Shown here one piece after another: positions 1 to 10,002 of a stretch of 29,727 bases of DNA. Each line of letters starts with the position of its first letter. Positions within the stretch are counted from its first letter, which is position 1. This stretch comes from a virus. The notes beneath the pieces are model-generated. The model did not search any database, was not told the DNA's origin, and saw nothing but the letters and a program-made list of their open reading frames with translations. Where the stretch lies: IMG/VR virus record IMGVR_UViG_3300013286_000040, positions 1 to 29,727 of that record. One strand, given 5' to 3'. The translations under genes were made by a program, and so were the position numbers.

Positions 1-117
1 ATGGCCCTGCGTTGGATCCATGAAGCTGAAGGATCCAACGGTGATGAAGAGTACCTGTGCCACTTGATCGGCTTGCCCTACGGCTATTTCCGTTCAGTTG
101 ACAGGGTTATTGTTTGA
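1..117 (+). CDS. 3' part of an unrecognised small gene (possibly complete, 38 aa)
   Basis: An open frame runs from the first base of the window to a TGA at 115-117, giving 38 residues that begin MALRWIHEAEG and end RSVDRVIV. Because the window starts exactly at an ATG, I cannot tell whether this is the true start or an internal methionine of a longer gene; the absence of visible upstream sequence means no ribosome site can be checked. No family is recognised. Its final codons (GTT GAC AGG) contain the -35 box of the next promoter, the same arrangement seen at later genes in this region, which supports it being a real coding 3' end. It also contains a perfect 10-bp inverted repeat at 10-40. 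Confidence 0.5.
   Translation: MALRWIHEAEGSNGDEEYLCHLIGLPYGYFRSVDRVIV
10..40. repeat. perfect 10-bp inverted repeat, 11-nt loop
   Basis: CGTTGGATCC at 10-19 is exactly mirrored by GGATCCAACG at 31-40, separated by 11 nt. It lies inside the coding frame at the window start. No T-run follows, so it is not a standard terminator. It could be an mRNA hairpin or a protein-binding site. Confidence 0.6.
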
Positions 118-126
118 CCGTATAAT
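98..126 (+). promoter_or_regulatory. sigma70-type early promoter P1
   Basis: TTGACA at 98-103, a 17-bp spacer, and TATAAT at 121-126: a perfect consensus pair. The -35 lies within the last codons of the preceding frame. A ribosome site AAGGAGCGAACC follows at 142-153, just before the ATG at 156. Confidence 0.92.
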
Positions 127-155
127 ACAAACATAGACACTAAGGAGCGAACCTA

Positions 156-479
156 ATGCAAACAGCAGAACTTAACACACAAGAAGCCCCAACTAAGTGG
201 TATGCCGCGCAAGATGCACAGCGCCGCAACACCAACAACAAGAGTCATTACGCATACTCTGTTCAAGCACAGATTACCCGTATGATGGCAGTGATGGACA
301 TGGTCTATGCGGCCAAGGGCATTTACGAAGCATATGGTAAGAAGGGTGTGTCAGTCAAAGTTGACGGCGCCATCGTCAAGGACCGCAAGAATCTGCAGGC
401 CCTGGAACAAGAGTGGACCTTCAAAGGATTCACTAAAAAGATTACACCACAGGGCGTAATTTATCGGTTGACTGCCTAA
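156..479 (+). CDS. unknown early protein, 107 aa
   Basis: A 107-residue soluble protein with no signal peptide or membrane segment and no recognised family. The N-terminal half is polar and glutamine/asparagine-rich, followed by a likely helix (QAQITRMMAVMDMVYAAKGI) and a lysine-rich C-terminal part that could form a small alpha/beta fold. The start is well set: promoter P1 is upstream and the ribosome site AAGGAGCGAACC lies 2 nt before the ATG. Its last codons (CGG TTG ACT GCC TAA) carry the -35 box of promoter P2. Position in the early cluster suggests a host-takeover or accessory function, but that is inference from location only. Confidence 0.85.
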   Translation: MQTAELNTQEAPTKWYAAQDAQRRNTNNKSHYAYSVQAQITRMMAVMDMVYAAKGIYEAYGKKGVSVKVDGAIVKDRKNLQALEQEWTFKGFTKKITPQGVIYRLTA

Positions 480-496
480 CCAAAAGACAGTATAAT
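468..496 (+). promoter_or_regulatory. sigma70-type early promoter P2
   Basis: TTGACT at 468-473, a 17-bp spacer, and TATAAT at 491-496. The -35 box is inside the end of the preceding gene. The ribosome site downstream is AAGGAGCACACT, a diverged version of the AAGGAGCGAACC element. Confidence 0.9.
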
Positions 497-523
497 TAAC
501 ACATACACAGCAAGGAGCACACT

Positions 524-613
524 ATGGATCAAGCTATTATCAACGCAATCATCATGTTTAGCCCTATCGTCATCATGGGTATTGCGATCCTAGTGGTTGA
601 CGGGTTGGAATAA
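524..613 (+). CDS. small single-pass membrane peptide, 29 aa
   Basis: The ATG at 524 follows promoter P2 and a strong AAGGAG ribosome site, and the frame ends at TAA 611-613. The 29-residue product is almost entirely hydrophobic (INAIIMFSPIVIMGIAILVV), flanked by acidic residues at both ends, so it should form one transmembrane helix. No family is recognised. Having its own promoter and ribosome site argues that it is translated despite its size. Its end codons (GTT GAC GGG) supply the -35 box of promoter P3. Small membrane peptides in phage early regions often affect the host envelope or superinfection, but nothing here shows that directly. Confidence 0.75.
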   Translation: MDQAIINAIIMFSPIVIMGIAILVVDGLE

Positions 614-625
614 AGACAGTATAAT
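597..625 (+). promoter_or_regulatory. sigma70-type early promoter P3
   Basis: TTGACG at 597-602, a 17-bp spacer, and TATAAT at 620-625. It is nested in the 3' end of the 29-aa gene, and AAGGAGCGAACC precedes the ATG at 652. Confidence 0.9.
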
Positions 626-651
626 TACTACATATTAACAAGGAGCGAACC

Positions 652-843
652 ATGTACAATATCGTAAACAACCCAATCCCAACTAGCAAGCTGTTCCTAA
701 CTCCAGAGGACGAACAAGACTTGTACAACCGCATTGAGCAGTTAACGGGTGCGGAAAAAGCCCTGGCATACCAAATTGCCATGTTCACATTCAATCTGTG
801 TCACAAGCTGGTTGAAGACAAGATCCTATATAATAGAGACTAA
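652..843 (+). CDS. unknown early protein, 63 aa
   Basis: A 63-residue mainly helical acidic protein (MYNIVNNPIPTSK... LVEDKILYNRD) with no recognised family. The start is supported by promoter P3 and the ribosome site AAGGAGCGAACC directly before the ATG. The segment around LTPEDEQDLYNRIEQLTGAEK reads as two short amphipathic helices. Its 3' codons contain a TATAAT (829-834), but I see no -35 at proper spacing, so a separate promoter for the downstream tRNA is uncertain. Twelve bases separate its stop codon from the tRNA-Arg gene, so the two may share a transcript. Confidence 0.82.
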   Translation: MYNIVNNPIPTSKLFLTPEDEQDLYNRIEQLTGAEKALAYQIAMFTFNLCHKLVEDKILYNRD

Positions 844-855
844 TTAAAAATTAAT

Positions 856-930
856 CTGTCGTTCGTATAATGGATAATACAGGGGATTTCTACTCCCTAA
901 ATAGCAGTTCGATTCTGTTACGACGGACCA
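856..930 (+). tRNA. tRNA-Arg (anticodon UCU), CCA encoded
   Basis: A full cloverleaf folds by eye. The acceptor stem 856-862 pairs with 920-926 (one G-U pair), with discriminator A927 and an encoded CCA at 928-930. The D-stem GTAT/ATAC lies at 865-868 and 877-880. The anticodon stem 882-886 pairs with 894-898, with loop TTTCTAC and anticodon TCT at 889-891. The T-stem 903-907 pairs with 915-919 around loop TTCGATT, and the variable loop is 4 nt. It would read AGA (and possibly AGG) codons. Phage tRNAs commonly supplement codons that are scarce in the host. A small hairpin (GTTGTA-GAAA-TACAAC, 940-955) follows and may mark 3' processing. Confidence 0.93.
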
Positions 931-939
931 AATACTGAA

Positions 940-955
940 GTTGTAGAAATACAAC
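940..955 (+). other. hairpin downstream of the tRNA
   Basis: GTTGTA (940-945) and TACAAC (950-955) form a 6-bp stem with a GAAA tetraloop, 10 nt after the tRNA CCA end. The following bases are A-rich rather than T-rich, so I do not call it an intrinsic terminator; a tRNA 3' processing element is possible. Confidence 0.5.
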
Positions 956-964
956 AAAAATAGT

Positions 965-993
965 TTGACATTAAATGGTGTTTAGTATATAAT
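965..993 (+). promoter_or_regulatory. sigma70-type early promoter P4, no ORF downstream
   Basis: TTGACA at 965-970, a 17-bp spacer, and TATAAT at 988-993: a perfect consensus pair. Unlike the other early promoters it is not followed by a ribosome site or gene before the next promoter 75 bp on. It would start a transcript near position 1000 that holds the hairpin described at 1025-1060. Confidence 0.88.
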
Positions 994-999
994 ACATGT

Positions 1000-1066
1000 A
1001 TAGATTGAGAAGAAAGAGTTTTAGTTCAGATAGGTCCACCGCATATGCAACGGCACTGAAATAAAG
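1000..1066 (+). ncRNA. candidate small RNA or leader with conserved hairpin (copy A)
   Basis: This stretch lies between two perfect promoters, starts about 7 nt after the TATAAT of P4, and has no start codon with a ribosome site. It folds as an outer stem TTCAG (1025-1029) with CTGAA (1056-1060), and an inner stem CCG (1039-1041) with CGG (1051-1053) closing a 9-nt loop CATATGCAA. The element GATAGGTCC before the inner stem and CGGCAC after it recur in the hairpin at 2891-2923, where the outer stem is different in sequence but still paired. No terminator is seen, so it could also be the 5' part of a longer mRNA reading into the gene at 1131. Confidence 0.5.
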
Positions 1067-1069
1067 TTC

Positions 1070-1098
1070 TTGACAATTAATCAAAATGGTGTTATAAT
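1070..1098 (+). promoter_or_regulatory. sigma70-type early promoter P5
   Basis: TTGACA at 1070-1075, a 17-bp spacer, and TATAAT at 1093-1098. The spacer shares the string AATGGTGTT with that of P4, suggesting duplication. The ribosome site AAGGAGCGACCC lies just before the ATG at 1131. Confidence 0.92.
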
Positions 1099-1130
1099 AG
1101 ACACTTAAATAGCAACAAGGAGCGACCCAA

Positions 1131-1514
1131 ATGGCTAAATCAAAATATGACAACTTCCCCAGCTTTGATCTTAACGAAGCTTGTGACCACTTTGACAGTA
1201 ATAAGCAAAGCAACTGGAAGAAGATCAGCAAGTTCATCGTGGCAGACGGTGATGAGTATTCAGAAGTCATGCTCAATGAGTTTGACTACTACGAGGTCAA
1301 TGACGGCGAGTACGAGGCCTTCATGCGAGGTGTACAGTATGCCTTGACCAAGATGAACACGGCCTTTGAGGCGGCAGGTGTGGACCTTCAAGTGTGCGAG
1401 GCAGACCTGGGCAATAACATGGGATTTGTCATGACCCGTACAGATGATGAGCCCGAAGACTTTGTGAAACGAGTGCTGAAAAAGCCCGTTTTAATGGTTG
1501 ACAGTTGGGTCTAA
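1131..1514 (+). CDS. unknown acidic early protein, 127 aa
   Basis: A 127-residue strongly acidic soluble protein (MAKSKYDNFPSFDLNEACDHF... at the N-terminus), rich in Asp, Glu and aromatic residues, with no signal peptide or membrane segment. No family is recognised. The acidic, compact character would be compatible with a DNA mimic or an inhibitor of a host DNA-binding protein, but there is no motif to prove this. Promoter P5 and the AAGGAGCGA ribosome site fix the start. Its last codons (GTT GAC AGT) form the -35 box of P6. Confidence 0.85.
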   Translation: MAKSKYDNFPSFDLNEACDHFDSNKQSNWKKISKFIVADGDEYSEVMLNEFDYYEVNDGEYEAFMRGVQYALTKMNTAFEAAGVDLQVCEADLGNNMGFVMTRTDDEPEDFVKRVLKKPVLMVDSWV

Positions 1515-1526
1515 AGCTGTTATAAT
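1498..1526 (+). promoter_or_regulatory. sigma70-type early promoter P6
   Basis: TTGACA at 1498-1503, a 17-bp spacer, and TATAAT at 1521-1526. The -35 box lies in the coding end of the previous gene. It is followed by ACAGGAGCGAACC before the ATG at 1558. Confidence 0.92.
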
Positions 1527-1557
1527 CACTACTTAAACAACACACAGGAGCGAACCT

Positions 1558-1917
1558 ATGTTAGCATTAGCAACTAAAGAAGCATTCAACGCAGCAGCTG
1601 TTCAGGATGCATGTAACGCAGCAGCCTTGGCAGCACGAGTAGCGGCCAAAGACTTTTACAACAAGCACGGCGACAGAGACGCTTGTGGCTTTGCTTGGGT
1701 TGATGTGTATGGCGTGCGTTCAAACAGCAGATTGGGCCGCACACTTCAGAGCTACGGTTTCCGCAAGAGCTACACAGGTAGCCTGCAGTTATGGAACCCC
1801 AGCCAGGCCAGCACACAGAGTGTATCAATCTTGGAAGCGGGTGCAGAAGCCTACGCACAAGTGCTGCGTGACAAGTTGGGCTTGGACCGGGCGTCGGCCA
1901 ATAGCCGATTGGATTGA
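1558..1917 (+). CDS. unknown early protein, 119 aa, alanine-rich N-terminus
   Basis: A 119-residue protein. Residues 1-30 are very rich in alanine and likely one long helix. The middle (FAWVDVYGVRSNSRLGRTL) and the aromatic/glycine segment YGFRKSYTGSLQLWNPS look like a compact conserved domain, and a second alanine-rich helix follows near residues 92-105. I recognise the general look of a conserved phage protein but cannot give a function. Start is defined by promoter P6 and the GGAGCGAACC ribosome site. The frame ends at 1917; the sequence after it carries the inverted repeat and promoter P7. Confidence 0.82.
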   Translation: MLALATKEAFNAAAVQDACNAAALAARVAAKDFYNKHGDRDACGFAWVDVYGVRSNSRLGRTLQSYGFRKSYTGSLQLWNPSQASTQSVSILEAGAEAYAQVLRDKLGLDRASANSRLD

Positions 1918-1925
1918 TTGTGCGT

Positions 1926-1954
1926 CAAACTGCCTTGACACACAGGGCAGTTTG
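1926..1954. repeat. 9-bp perfect inverted repeat around the -35 box of P7 (candidate operator)
   Basis: CAAACTGCC (1926-1934) is mirrored exactly by GGCAGTTTG (1946-1954), with an 11-nt centre that begins with the TTGACA -35 box of P7. No T-run follows, so terminator function for the upstream gene is doubtful. The placement would suit a repressor operator or a hairpin at the end of the upstream mRNA. None of the other early promoters has such a repeat, so the AAA+ ATPase gene may be regulated separately. Confidence 0.6.
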
Positions 1955-1964
1955 ACTATATAAT
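1935..1964 (+). promoter_or_regulatory. sigma70-type promoter P7
   Basis: TTGACA at 1935-1940, an 18-bp spacer, and TATAAT at 1959-1964 (within TATATAAT). It drives the AAA+ ATPase gene, whose ribosome site is AGGAGCGAACACT before the ATG at 1996. The -35 box sits in the centre of an inverted repeat. Confidence 0.88.
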
Positions 1965-1995
1965 AAACACTTAACAACACACAGGAGCGAACACT

Positions 1996-2868
1996 ATGGC
2001 AGGTTATAAAGTACTTAAACTGGACGAAATGCGTACATCACCAACTCAAAGGGCCATCGAGCAACGGGCCGTAGAAACCAATCTCAAAGAGACCGATGCA
2101 GAGATCATCGAACGCTTGCGCCAGCGTTTTGAGATACTGGACGACATGACCCGCGCTGTGAAGCGGGGTGATGTGCGTGCTATGATTGTGACAGGCCCCC
2201 CGGGTGTGGGCAAGAGCTTTGGCGTAGAGAAAGTGTTATCAAAGCATGATGTGTTTGCTACTGTGGCACAGAACGACAAGCTGAAGAAGTATGAAGTGGT
2301 CAAAGGCGCTATGAGTGCTATTGGACTCTATCGTAAGCTGTACGAGTATTCAGACCGGAAGAGCATCTTGGTGTTCGATGACTGTGACTCAGTGCTGTTG
2401 GATGACCTTAGCCTGAACATACTCAAGGCCGCATTGGACAGCTCAAAGAAGCGTATGATCCATTGGAACACTGACTCAAGACTCTTGCGCTCAGAAGGTG
2501 TGCCCGGCTCGTTTGAGTTCCGAGGCGGTGCTATCTTTATCACCAACATCAAGTTTGAGAATGTGAAAAGCAAGAAGCTACAGGATCACTTGGAAGCATT
2601 AGAGAGCCGTTGCCACTACTTGGACTTGACTATTGACACAGAGCGTGAGAAGGTGTTGCGTATTAAACAGATCGTACAGGACGGCATGCTGGCTGACTAC
2701 GAGTTCCACGAGTGGGATGTAGATGAGATACTTGCATTCATTGATGATAATAAGAAGAAACTGCGCGAGCTAAGTCTTAGGACTGTGCTCAAGATAGCAG
2801 ACTTGAAGAAGAGCTTTCCTGATCGCTGGAAAGCTGTTGCTGATGTTACTGTAATGCGTAGAGGCTAA
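1996..2868 (+). CDS. AAA+ ATPase, 290 aa
   Basis: Walker A is GPPGVGKS at residues 67-74, Walker B is ILVFDD near 124-129, and a sensor-1-like FITN lies at 181-184, so this is an AAA+ family P-loop ATPase. The N-terminal 60 residues are mostly helical and charged. The C-terminal part (from about 225) is helical, as in AAA+ lid domains, with several arginines that could serve as sensor 2. It is shorter than hexameric protease or helicase AAA+ proteins and lacks an additional catalytic domain, so it is probably a remodeller or loader of unknown target. It is the last gene of the plus-strand early block, with its own promoter and the noncoding hairpin region immediately downstream. No member is specifically recognised; T4 itself lacks an obvious equivalent. 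Confidence 0.88.
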   Translation: MAGYKVLKLDEMRTSPTQRAIEQRAVETNLKETDAEIIERLRQRFEILDDMTRAVKRGDVRAMIVTGPPGVGKSFGVEKVLSKHDVFATVAQNDKLKKYEVVKGAMSAIGLYRKLYEYSDRKSILVFDDCDSVLLDDLSLNILKAALDSSKKRMIHWNTDSRLLRSEGVPGSFEFRGGAIFITNIKFENVKSKKLQDHLEALESRCHYLDLTIDTEREKVLRIKQIVQDGMLADYEFHEWDVDEILAFIDDNKKKLRELSLRTVLKIADLKKSFPDRWKAVADVTVMRRG

Positions 2869-2890
2869 GCACATAGCCCTACACCCTAGC

Positions 2891-3006
2891 TACTGATAGG
2901 TCCGATTCGCTCCCGGCACAGTATTTAGTTAGTAACTGAAAAGAGTCGAAAGGCTCTTTCTAATCCTTGGATGTCCGATTCGCTCCCGGCTCCAGGGATT
3001 TTTTTT
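2891..3006 (+). ncRNA. candidate structured RNA / 3' UTR with repeated hairpins (copies B and C)
   Basis: Three stem-loops follow one another. Copy B has outer stem TACTG (2891-2895) with CAGTA (2919-2923) and inner stem CCG/CGG (2902-2904, 2914-2916). The second is AAAGAGTC (2940-2947) with GGCTCTTT (2952-2959) and a GAAA tetraloop. Copy C is the terminator stem 2963-2999. B and C carry the identical 18-mer GTCCGATTCGCTCCCGGC (2900-2917 and 2973-2990), which places ATTCGCTCC in a 9-nt loop. TTCGCTCC is the exact complement of GGAGCGAA, the ribosome site of four early genes. No promoter is evident, so it would arise as, or be processed from, the 3' end of the AAA+ ATPase transcript. Confidence 0.5.
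2962..3006 (+). terminator. rho-independent terminator of the early plus-strand block
   Basis: ATCCTTGGA (2963-2971) pairs over 9 bp (one G-U) with TCCAGGGAT (2991-2999), followed by seven T at 3000-3006. The 19-nt loop is unusually long for a terminator and contains the repeated 18-mer. It lies 94 nt after the ATPase stop codon, on the same strand. Confidence 0.85.
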
Positions 3007-3135
3007 GACCTCAGGGGCTAGTGATCGCCTCGGGGTTAGTCATCGACCGAGAGACAACGGGTGAGGTCGGGGCTTATATATTATTATTACTGTTGCTTTA
3101 AAACAACAGCTTAGTGGTGCAAAATCACCTGGCTG
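3007..3135 (+). other. noncoding region with further inverted and direct repeats
   Basis: GACCTCA (3007-3013) pairs with TGAGGTC (3062-3068), enclosing CTCGG (3029-3033) with CCGAG (3047-3051). Within it two near-copies of GGGG(C/T)TAGT(G/C)ATCG occur side by side (from 3014 and 3032). Two more hairpins follow: CTGTTG/CAACAG (3090-3095, 3104-3109), and CAGC/GCTG with GGTG/CACC (3107-3135). I find no convincing gene. Whether this is a separate structured RNA or several terminators or processing sites is unclear. Confidence 0.45.
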
Positions 3136-3952: not shown

Positions 3953-4378
3953 TTAGAGGTATTCGTAGTTCACTGTGTCTGCGTTGTCCTGTAGCACTTG
4001 GGCGCCGTTGGCCAAATGAAATTTTCGAGCCATTTCCGTCTTGGGGCTCAGTGTGACAAAACGACCAATTTGTGGACGCTGTTGTTGTATGTGCTGTCTA
4101 GCTGCTGCTATCAACTTGCGACCGCTGCGGGGCGCATATGACCATATGGTGTAGAAAGCTGCCACACGATCACCAGTTTGGCCCAGTTCGCATTCTGTTC
4201 GGGGCACCTGCTCCAAATAGGCCACGCACACCACTGCCTGTGGCTGGCCGTCCTCCAACAGTACCAAAATCTCAGCGTGATCATGTATCCTACTACTGGT
4301 GGGAATTGAAGGTCTAACGGGATCATCTTTGATCAAGTCAATTAGGGGATCGTTGAGGTTTGGTATGGTGTATAACAT
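3953..4378 (-). CDS. GNAT-like acetyltransferase, 141 aa
   Basis: A 141-residue protein whose C-terminal half has the look of a GNAT fold: a beta-strand segment (AAFYTIWSY), then the basic turn APRSGRKLIAAARQHIQ in the place of the acetyl-CoA-binding loop and helix, a strand with RFVTLSPKTEMARKF, and a closing NGAQVL segment. The canonical Q/RxxGxG/A is not cleanly present (PRSGRK), so activity or fold is an inference. The N-terminal HDHAEILVLLEDGQPQAVVCVAYLE could be strands 1-3. It follows gp41 at the end of the minus-strand replication block, with an AAGG ribosome site and a possible promoter of its own. Relatives occur, from memory, in T4-like cyanophages as conserved hypotheticals. Confidence 0.7.
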   Translation of the reverse strand: MLYTIPNLNDPLIDLIKDDPVRPSIPTSSRIHDHAEILVLLEDGQPQAVVCVAYLEQVPRTECELGQTGDRVAAFYTIWSYAPRSGRKLIAAARQHIQQQRPQIGRFVTLSPKTEMARKFHLANGAQVLQDNADTVNYEYL

Positions 4379-7930: not shown

Positions 7931-9025
7931 TTACAATCTTACTACAATTTTGTCAAATGTTCCGGTTGAATTAAGTGTGACACCCTGTGCATTTCCCCAC
8001 TTGCTGTTGTCCGTTTGAGGATTGATGTATGCACTGCCTGTCCAAGTGAATCCACTAGTTTGGACACCTCCGGCAGGCACAGTATTAACAGCAGTTATGG
8101 TAATGATCAAATCATTAGCACCGTCATCGCCACCTAGATGGCTACCTAAGATTTTGATTTGGTTTCCAACATGATAGCTGTAGCCCGCACGATTTAAGAC
8201 TACAGTATAAACACCATCAACCTTGGTTATATCAAATGTGGCACCTTGGCCTTGTGGCGGAATGTATTTGACTCTTAGATATACATCACGCTGTTTATAA
8301 TCAGCGTCTTGACTATAGGTTTTTGTTATCAAATTGGTAGATGGTGTCACACTAAATGTATCAATATCTTGCCATTTGTCTTCAAGTGCAATACTGGTGT
8401 AGTCAGTTACCTGTACAGTGACCGTGGCACTTAGACCCACAGGATAAAAGTCAACATTGAATGACGGAGTCGATGTGAGTATATTTGGTCGATGTATTTC
8501 TGCTAGTTCGCTTAGGTATGTGGCCACTAGATTGTTAGGGTTTCGATCATCAGTTAGTCTTAAAAATTTTCTCAAATATATTGGTGGCAAGGCACTGGGC
8601 ATTGCACCACCTAGCAGATCAATAGTGCCTGTTACTCCATATTGTGTGTCTCCATACACAGGAGTCATTGTATCGTCTGGATTCAGTATATATATTGTGT
8701 ATTTTAAAAATTGTGGAGCAATATCAGCAATAGCTGTGGCCGGGATCATCACGCGACCAATTCCAGGCATACCAGTAGCAACATCAATGTCAGTTTCATA
8801 GATGCCTTCGTTAAGTTCATCCATTAATACAAACTTCATGTTTAAACCTGTAATATCCTGGCGCTTTTGTTCTGAATTTTTAACATCAATTTCTAAGACA
8901 TTGTCAAGGCCCTGATATATTTTGAATTTTCTTTGGTACACGATTCTCCACTCCAATAGGGTTGAAGCCAAATTAACGACTGTCTGGATCCGATTAGGAT
9001 ATAAATAACTTGATATTTTTTGCAT
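7931..9025 (-). CDS. virion structural protein (baseplate/tail-fibre type), 364 aa
   Basis: A 364-residue beta-rich protein. The first ~135 residues (FKIYQGLDNVLEIDVKNSEQ ... GDTQYGVTGTIDL) have an immunoglobulin-like feel similar to the N-terminal attachment domains of phage baseplate/fibre proteins. The rest is repetitive beta sandwich-like sequence, rich in Thr, Val and Gly (for example TVTVQVTDYTSIAL and GNQIKILGSHLGGDDGAND). No catalytic motif is visible. It likely mounts on the baseplate or tail fibre network. A late-type CATAAATA element (9045-9052) and a GAGG ribosome site precede the ATG at 9025. It is isolated from the main structural block, lying next to replication genes. Confidence 0.75.
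   Translation of the reverse strand: MQKISSYLYPNRIQTVVNLASTLLEWRIVYQRKFKIYQGLDNVLEIDVKNSEQKRQDITGLNMKFVLMDELNEGIYETDIDVATGMPGIGRVMIPATAIADIAPQFLKYTIYILNPDDTMTPVYGDTQYGVTGTIDLLGGAMPSALPPIYLRKFLRLTDDRNPNNLVATYLSELAEIHRPNILTSTPSFNVDFYPVGLSATVTVQVTDYTSIALEDKWQDIDTFSVTPSTNLITKTYSQDADYKQRDVYLRVKYIPPQGQGATFDITKVDGVYTVVLNRAGYSYHVGNQIKILGSHLGGDDGANDLIITITAVNTVPAGGVQTSGFTWTGSAYINPQTDNSKWGNAQGVTLNSTGTFDKIVVRL
9000..9007 (+). promoter_or_regulatory. T4-type late promoter TATAAATA, plus strand
   Basis: Exact T4 late promoter octamer TATAAATA. It lies 42 nt before the plus-strand gene at 9050 and inside the first codons of the minus-strand gene at 7931-9025. No Shine-Dalgarno follows, so its use is plausible but not proven. 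Confidence 0.5.
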
Positions 9026-9052: not shown

Positions 9053-9430
9053 GTAAAATTAAGAGATAATATACAAGAACAACTCCCCTTTATTTCAGTG
9101 CTAAACTACGGCGAAAATGAATATGTAGGCATTATTATTAATCAAGATCAATATGTTACAAGTTTTTATGATCTAGCATTGATCAAAGCACAGGATGATA
9201 AATCTGCATTCTTAGAAATAGGCGAAGCGTGGTGGTACGAATCTAACCGACAAATTCCTATTAACATTTTTTGTCGTGTAGAAATAGAGCCTTTTAAATA
9301 TGCAGTAAAAACATTCAATAGCAAAGATGTAAGAGTAATATTAGGTCCAGTGGTCAACCTAATGAACTTAACTCTAAAAAGAGTTAAAAGGAAAAGCGTA
9401 CAATTAGTACGAACACCACCCAAGTGTTAA
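9050..9430 (+). CDS. conserved-type unknown protein, 126 aa, lone plus-strand gene
   Basis: From the ATG at 9050 the product is MVKLRDNIQEQLPFISVLNY..., 126 residues, mixed alpha/beta, ending in a basic tail (LKRVKRKSVQLVRTPPKC). The central IGEAWWYESNRQIPINIF and FNSKDVRVILGP segments look strongly conserved and, from memory, have relatives in T4-like marine phages. I prefer the ATG at 9050 to an in-frame TTG at 9020 because the sequence before it is not protein-like. No Shine-Dalgarno is seen. It is the only well-supported plus-strand gene in the right-hand 25 kb, and its stop overlaps the convergent DnaE-like gene by 4 bp. Function unknown; the basic tail may bind nucleic acid. Confidence 0.8.
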   Translation: MVKLRDNIQEQLPFISVLNYGENEYVGIIINQDQYVTSFYDLALIKAQDDKSAFLEIGEAWWYESNRQIPINIFCRVEIEPFKYAVKTFNSKDVRVILGPVVNLMNLTLKRVKRKSVQLVRTPPKC

Positions 9431-10002
9431 CTGTATCCGTAACTGATACTTTCACATATCTTATTCATTTGTACAACAATGGCTGTTGCATAACTGATCG
9501 CATGGGCTTTCTTAAAGTAGTATTCATCACCTTCTGGTTTTTGCCAAACTTCCGCTTCGATCAAGTTCCAGTCTTTCCCTATCAAATAACGCTTGGCAGG
9601 CCGGATAACCGCTAGTACAGCAGCCAATTGTTCTATACTCTTCGGTTTCATCTCTCTTAAAATTGTCCCGTAACCATTTATATGAAATAACAGATTTGTG
9701 AAATCGTCCTGTTCCAATAGATCCCATAATGGCTCCGTGTTCATTAATCGAACAAGTTCTTCTTCAGATTGTATATCTTTATATACACCAACATTGAGAA
9801 AATCTATTTTAAAATATCCTCGTTCGGCAGCTTGTTTGTAGTCAATAGTACTTAATCCACTAAGAGGATTGTACGGAATAGCTGTACAATATACACCGGT
9901 ATTGTGTTTTTTAAAAGTACCATTATCATTAATTGCGGCAGTGGTATGCTTGATTAACTTTAATGCCTGTTCTCTATCAGCAAAATCTATATCAATATCC
10001 AT
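9427..10002 (-). CDS. miniature DnaE-like protein: reduced DNA polymerase III alpha catalytic core, 191 aa
   Basis: Residues 1-10 (MDIDIDFADR) match the PDFDxDF..R motif of bacterial Pol III alpha, with Asp4 and Asp6 in the place of E. coli D401/D403. KKHNTGV (31-37) matches KHAGGV. FKIDFLNV (64-71) matches KFDFLGL with Asp67 at the D555 position. LKP-FEDIIALVALxRPGP corresponds to MKPKSIEQLAAVLAVIRPAK (118-137), and FNKSHAAAYAxxxYQT to FKKAHAISYATAIVVQ (163-178). So all motifs appear in order in 191 residues instead of about 1160; PHP, most of the fingers, and C-terminal domains are missing. T4-like phages normally use a B-family polymerase (gp43), so this is not the expected replicase. It could be a polymerase-fold adaptor or a degenerate homologue. 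It ends the uvsX operon, TAATG-coupled to the 60-aa gene. Confidence 0.7.
   Translation of the reverse strand: MDIDIDFADREQALKLIKHTTAAINDNGTFKKHNTGVYCTAIPYNPLSGLSTIDYKQAAERGYFKIDFLNVGVYKDIQSEEELVRLMNTEPLWDLLEQDDFTNLLFHINGYGTILREMKPKSIEQLAAVLAVIRPAKRYLIGKDWNLIEAEVWQKPEGDEYYFKKAHAISYATAIVVQMNKICESISYGYS

Follow-up and report, generated by a model that had tools for sequence, protein, structure and literature searches.

The early region of an uncultured T4-like phage ends in two hairpins that carry the same loop, and this locus raises the question of what such a pair of hairpins behind a single gene would be used for. The phage is represented by positions 1 to 29,727 of the IMG/VR virus record IMGVR_UViG_3300013286_000040 (this whole 29.7-kb stretch is called the window in the following), and matches to a tail sheath, a DnaB-like helicase and a UvsW-like DNA helicase assign the contig to the T4-like phages. 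An earlier note on the window had described three hairpins, A (1025-1060), B (2891-2923) and C (2963-2999), as one three-copy RNA family. While these coordinates and sequences were correct, B and C are the two arms of one small RNA (sRNA) at about 2870-3006, located between an early AAA-ATPase gene and the terminator, whereas hairpin A is a different element. The earlier note missed the key fact, namely that the loop common to B and C reads as the reverse complement of the Shine-Dalgarno (SD) sequence in front of the early genes. All evidence presented here is computational. Based on it, we consider it about 80% probable that the sRNA from the 3' untranslated region (UTR) of the ATPase gene occludes the early SDs in trans and in this way shuts off early translation.

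The predicted anti-SD sRNA (about 2870-3006, plus strand) directly follows the AAA ATPase gene (1996-2868, plus strand; phrog_1250, 290 aa), and its 3' end is an intrinsic terminator. Arm 1 is hairpin B, whose 9-nt loop AUUCGCUCC at 2905-2913 includes the seed UUCGCUCC at 2906-2913. Arm 2 comprises hairpin C with the seed at 2979-2986 and, as recognised in the earlier note, doubles as the terminator, since the hairpin at 2963-2999 runs into a T8 at 2999-3006. Between the two arms, a spacer hairpin AAAGAGUC-GAAA-GGCUCUUU is predicted at 2940-2959, and relatives have short counterparts at this place. The loop is identical in B and C, where it lies in the context G-AUUCGCUCC-C, and the exact 18-mer GTCCGATTCGCTCCCGGC is common to both hairpins (0.00 expected in shuffles). 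A GC-rich hairpin followed by a U-run, as expected for an intrinsic terminator, was found for C only, while B has no U-run. Compared to shuffled sequences, C with its terminator showed a fold z-score of -2.8 in the window, B one of -0.58 and A one of 0.17.

No sigma-70-like promoter was found between the ATPase stop codon and hairpin B (2868-2890). Since the RNA has no recognisable promoter of its own, it would be made at the end of the early transcription unit and then accumulate; its probable origin is the ATPase mRNA, from whose 3' UTR it would be released. With Rfam 15, a tRNA was the sole match in the window above the gathering score, and a permissive search of 840-3120 yielded chance matches below threshold only, for example CRISPR-DR17 with 20.5 bits compared to a cut-off of 42. 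The statement that no phage RNA of such form has been described agrees with our literature search, the coverage of which was incomplete.

The early region at 1-3000 comprises six small plus-strand open reading frames (ORFs), a tRNA-Arg and the AAA ATPase. A near-perfect TTGACA-17/18-TATAAT promoter lies immediately 5' of most of the six early ORFs; genes are called early here on the basis of promoter sequence and clustering. The loop part UUCGCUCC is the reverse complement of GGAGCGAA, which forms the extended SD in four of the six early genes of the window. These predicted targets, all on the plus strand, are located at 144-151 (ORF 156-479), 642-649 (ORF 652-843), 1547-1554 (ORF 1558-1917) and 1984-1991, the latter being the SD of the ATPase gene itself and pointing to autoregulation. 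The SDs of the other two fit partly: GGAGCACA at 514-521 (plus strand), ahead of a short ORF starting at 524, is a predicted weaker target with a duplex energy of -12.0 kcal/mol, and GGAGCGAC at 1119-1126 (plus strand), ahead of ORF 1131-1514, is predicted to pair with -13.1 kcal/mol. Within the window, GGAGCGAA occurs four times, each time as the SD of an early gene, and its complement twice, both times in a hairpin loop, which results in 6 occurrences compared to 0.47 expected. Among the ORFs with complementary SDs, phrogs and Pfam gave annotations for the ATPase and for a single phrog without known function only.

The GGAG of these SDs pairs with the 16S rRNA, while the CGAA adds nothing to the canonical pairing with the 3' end of the 16S rRNA (anti-SD). 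Since CGAA is of no use for this pairing, its conservation needs another reason. When the contigs that carry the loop were pooled, GGAGCGAA stood in front of 343 of 798 promoter-linked genes (43%) compared to 30 of 793 other genes (3.8%). The same tendency was seen for shorter parts of the motif, with GGAGCG at 67% of early-promoter genes and 9.3% of the others, and GGAGC at 92% and 27%, respectively. Accordingly, the median duplex between loop and SD amounts to -13.2 kcal/mol for promoter-linked genes and -8.0 kcal/mol for other genes. Three large contigs (G001-G003, 278-383 kb) were read almost whole for the placement of GGAGCGAA SDs, and in all three these cluster with early promoters beside the RNA gene. 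They occupy 87.6-98.1 kb in G002, where the RNA lies at 99.1 kb, and 105-115 kb in G003, where it lies at 110.8 kb, while G001 showed early promoters at both contig ends, adjoining the RNA at 3.0 kb.

To follow the element beyond the window, ATPase relatives were gathered from viral contigs and 134 distinct ATPase 3' UTRs were compared. The homologous element, recognised by TTCGCTCC, is present in 99 of the 134, with 189 copies compared to 0.4 expected (twice in 82 UTRs, three times in 4 and once in 13). All 164 copies with enough flanking sequence form a hairpin of at least 5 bp, and the 11-mer GATTCGCTCCC, which includes the extension GA...C, is intact in 163 of them, surrounded by 131 distinct stem contexts. 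Because the stems share little sequence or length, a flank-swap test was used, in which the 3' flanks were exchanged among the hairpins (30 swaps each) and the fold energies compared. The mean fold energy was -15.4 kcal/mol for native and -6.8 kcal/mol for swapped hairpins, and 111 of the 164 native hairpins folded better than all of their 30 swaps. Native folds beating swapped flanks means that the stems covary while the loop is fixed. Compensatory outer stems among the homologues of hairpin B, such as TACTG/CAGTA, TACAC/GTGTA and TACAT/ATGTA, illustrate this directly. The proposal of a conserved functional RNA therefore holds for B and C, which have homologues with covarying stems in many related phages, but not for a family of three copies. 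The covariation between A and B came from a comparison of non-homologous hairpins and is no evidence, and the invariant part is the loop, not a core around a variable loop.

The usual layout in the relatives is an anti-SD hairpin, a spacer hairpin and an anti-SD hairpin with T-run, with a median loop spacing of 72 nt. Thirteen large contigs (95-383 kb) contain GATTCGCTCCC two or three times, with two copies side by side in each. Some relatives showed a single copy behind another gene, together with a separate terminator. By ATPase, the best of the named relatives is PA5oct (49.6%), which carries no such element after its ATPase gene, and a megablast search of the first 10 kb of the window against cultured phages gave no match.

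In the bacterial genome collection, one match was obtained, L417 (PKDU01000070.1), a phage-like contig binned into a Flavobacteriaceae metagenome-assembled genome, which led to a sister clade. This contig reads as a phage early region with small promoter-linked genes and the ATPase, and it is probably a misbinned phage. It contains three hairpins with the loop UGCCCUC, and its relatives form a clade with GAGGGC(A) as early SD, present at 80 of 133 early starts, while GGAGCGA was found at 0 of 133. In the ATPase 3' UTRs of this sister clade, GCCCTC occurs 50 times compared to 1.06 expected, always in a hairpin of at least 5 bp, and TTCGCTCC is absent; the flank swap again favoured the native folds (-17.9 compared to -9.2 kcal/mol). 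The window loop forms duplexes of -12.3 kcal/mol on average with its own SDs and of -7.8 kcal/mol with those of L417, whereas the L417 loops reach means of -10.2 to -12.2 kcal/mol with their own SDs and about -7 kcal/mol with those of the window. For its own SDs, every loop ranks in the top 0.1% of random 9-mers. L417 itself is intermediate, since its SD GAGGAGCAC and loop GUGCCCUC form 8 pairs around one bulged A. In the ATPase tree, the loop types fall into separate groups, with 6 changes among three labels compared to 26.5 for shuffled labels. Nested in the GCCCUC group, L457 and L459 have lost the multi-hairpin array, and what is left in the 3' UTR are one or two degenerate stem-loops with GCCC(C)TC; the GAGGGC SDs have mostly been lost as well. 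Altogether, the joint pattern of loop and SD across the clades is as expected from base pairing in trans. A third loop type complementary to GGAGATC was sought in L457 and L459 and not found. The early leaders of these two contigs showed CTCC 2-8 nt ahead of the GGAG SD (e.g. ACTCCAACTAGGAGATCCAATG), a potential means of sequestering the SD in cis.

We infer from these observations that the loops would pair with early mRNAs at the SD, which would block binding of the 30S subunit and turn early translation off. Repression of the ATPase gene itself would add a negative feedback and could thereby set the early-to-late switch, and the second hairpin would serve as transcription terminator in addition. 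Several observations weigh against this interpretation. About a third of the early-promoter genes are without the CGxx extension, and one contig, L402, retains the loop, yet most SDs on this fragment differ from GGAGCGAA. The supporting result that GGAGCGAA heads 0 of 14 early genes in loop-free contigs comes from a small set. Furthermore, some copies favour alternative pairings that touch the loop in single-sequence folds, and the co-change of loop and SD reflects few independent events on the ATPase tree, though many sites are involved. Finally, its role might be confined to cis, with the RNA remaining in the 3' end of the mRNA.

Among the other explanations, the one that fares best accepts the pairing and assumes that the RNA stabilises, stores or activates the early mRNAs. 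The data support the pairing and not the sign of its effect, but the paired region covers the GGAG core that is needed by the 30S subunit, and the best studied parallel, NfeR1, represses by occlusion of the ribosome binding site (PMC10746234), so that we regard activation as unlikely. Slightly less probable still is that a protein or RNase, of phage or host origin, recognises the loops as well as the SD region, or that the hairpin is an element acting at the DNA level, with the complementarity being secondary. Protein-binding hairpins, too, can have invariant loops on variable stems, and the two strands fold about equally (-17.8 and -17.5 kcal/mol). Since neither fold energy nor G-U pairs are informative on the strand, it was assigned from the T-runs and the direction of the early genes, and it is the T-runs that orient the element to the early-gene strand. 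A shared protein would moreover predict a direct copy of the mRNA site, whereas the loop is its reverse complement, and the joint shift to GCCCUC and GAGGGC in the other clade is a prediction of base pairing. We give even less credit to ordinary 3'-end structures, that is a terminator and a stabilising hairpin whose loop was inherited or spread by recombination without any regulatory role. In 84 of 86 multi-copy relatives, the last hairpin is indeed a terminator, with a T-run at most 32 nt past the last loop. However, the first hairpin is not a terminator, invariant loops on stems rewritten in 131 contexts are the opposite of what copying of whole terminators would leave, and the loop exactly complements the early SD of the same phage and shifts with it between clades. 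Least probable is that A, B and C form one three-copy family with an AUARGUCC...CGGCA internal-loop motif, for although A, too, has the TARGTCC that precedes the loop in many homologues of B and C, A/G variation included, it has no seed, forms a duplex of only about -4.7 kcal/mol with the early SDs, is absent from all ATPase-family loci and is flanked by tandem promoters in unrelated contigs, where it is found near tRNAs and TTCGCTCC is missing, and no A-like hairpin with a UUCGCUCC loop was found.

The preferred reading of an anti-SD RNA that represses early genes can be compared to known systems. A close likeness is found in the ar14/'cuckoo' sRNAs, of which NfeR1 of Sinorhizobium meliloti silences mRNA by occluding the ribosome binding site; they combine several hairpins, an identical ultraconserved unpaired anti-SD motif, divergent stems and redundant seeds (PMC10746234). 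The phage RNA shares the multiple hairpins, the identical anti-SD loop and the variable stems. Since the motif CCUCCUCCC that defines the bacterial family is absent, it is not a cuckoo member: its loops are AUUCGCUCC or (U)GCCCUC, and the seeds UUCGCUCC or GCCCUC are matched to a phage-specific SD extension. Unlike ar14/cuckoo, it is viral, encoded in a 3' UTR and predicted to cover the early genes of the phage itself. The C4 RNA of phages P1 and P7 is likewise a structure-dependent phage antisense RNA with complementary parts probably in loops, blocking translation around the ribosome binding site (PMC12197685). It acts on one antirepressor mRNA (ant/icd) in temperate-phage immunity, while in the window six early ORFs have SDs with complementarity, which would be a whole early regulon addressed through a shared SD. 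The sar RNA of P22 and the OOP and PreS RNAs of lambda also are phage-encoded small RNAs acting by pairing (PMC12197685), but they have single or few targets and no repeated anti-SD loops. In T4, early mRNAs are shut off post-transcriptionally at the SD or initiation region, since RegB cuts GGAG at the SD and RegA acts at the initiation region of about 30 mRNAs (PMC3014915). These agents are proteins, whereas the one proposed here is an RNA recognising GGAG plus a specific extension. The best explanation of the sequence data is a system that would be built like the rhizobial sRNAs with a phage-specific seed.

If this is true, a phage RNA would control a whole temporal gene class via one shared SD extension and do the job of RegB and RegA in T4, and early-gene SD extensions that are useless for pairing with the 16S rRNA would be explained. 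As each clade has its own complementary pair of loop and SD, the sequence by itself tells which genes of an uncultured phage are the targets, and natural orthogonal sRNA/SD pairs would be on offer. We see a somewhat better than even chance for a wider interpretation, in which the early genes and a few late ones (such as csgF) in a large, uncultured group of T4-like and jumbo phages are tagged with a phage-specific SD extension as an address, and one multi-hairpin anti-SD RNA shuts this set off. Tag and RNA would co-evolve between clades as an RNA-based early-to-late translation switch, perhaps together with a phage bS21. Located beside the SD/anti-SD helix, bS21 is a possible partner of such a switch. 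It is encoded (PF01165) by six of the searched contigs of the window's clade (G001, G002, G003, G004, G006 and G014), including all those of at least 265 kb.

Besides early genes, a few non-early genes are headed by GGGAGCGAA. Homologues of the curli assembly protein CsgF (PF10614) showed this SD in three of three cases (G002:3039-3515, minus strand; G003:34050-34490, minus strand; G004:160004-160441, plus strand), with pairwise identities of 42-48%, and a curlin-repeat-like protein is encoded near the homologue in G003. A small membrane-like protein is encoded in three copies, two of which are preceded by the same sequence. In G001 (258185-258202, minus strand) and G006 (123350-123367, plus strand), the gene for a secreted-looking protein of 295 aa has the leader AGTTGGGAGCGAATCAACT, in which 17 nt are exactly complementary to hairpin 1 (GTTGATTCGCTCCCAAC) in the RNA of the same phage.

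Hairpin A is located in a cassette at 965-1098 (plus strand) outside the sRNA family, consisting of promoter P4 (965-993), the hairpin (1025-1060) and promoter P5 (1070-1098). As described in the earlier note, a perfect promoter precedes it and no gene follows before the next promoter. The homologues expected in related phages exist for the loop of B and C, while A has none at the ATPase-family loci. Its likeness to B (GATAGGTCC...CGGCAC) is weak, with nothing shared beyond these elements, and GATAGGTCC-N-CGGCAC defines no family, since more than 119 viral contigs match and nearly all listed contexts look unrelated. The exact 22-nt core of A was found in three viral contigs, L114, L418 and L419, which are tRNA-rich and without TTCGCTCC. 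There it lies in a segment spanning P4, hairpin and P5, with 81-85% identity to the window (L114, reverse complement, about 9346-9494; L418, reverse complement, about 8112-8285; L419, about 4113-4267). The outer stem is longer in these contigs, with folds of -17.5 to -24.6 kcal/mol compared to -11.4 kcal/mol in the window; by eye, one compensatory pair (G-C to A-U) and one broken pair distinguish the window from the other three. Hairpin A showed no complementarity to the early SDs, and a search via UGCAUAUG gave no convincing leader target for its loop. It is possibly a leader RNA or an operator between tandem promoters. In L114, L418 and L419, a boxA-like GTTCTTTAAAATTT or GTTCATTAAAAATTT follows the second promoter in place of SD and gene.

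The tRNA-Arg (TCT) is located at 856-930 inside the early region. An inverted repeat, GTTGTAGAAATACAAC, lies 3' of it and resembles the hairpin of the terminator that follows the single-copy anti-SD hairpin in L368-L393.

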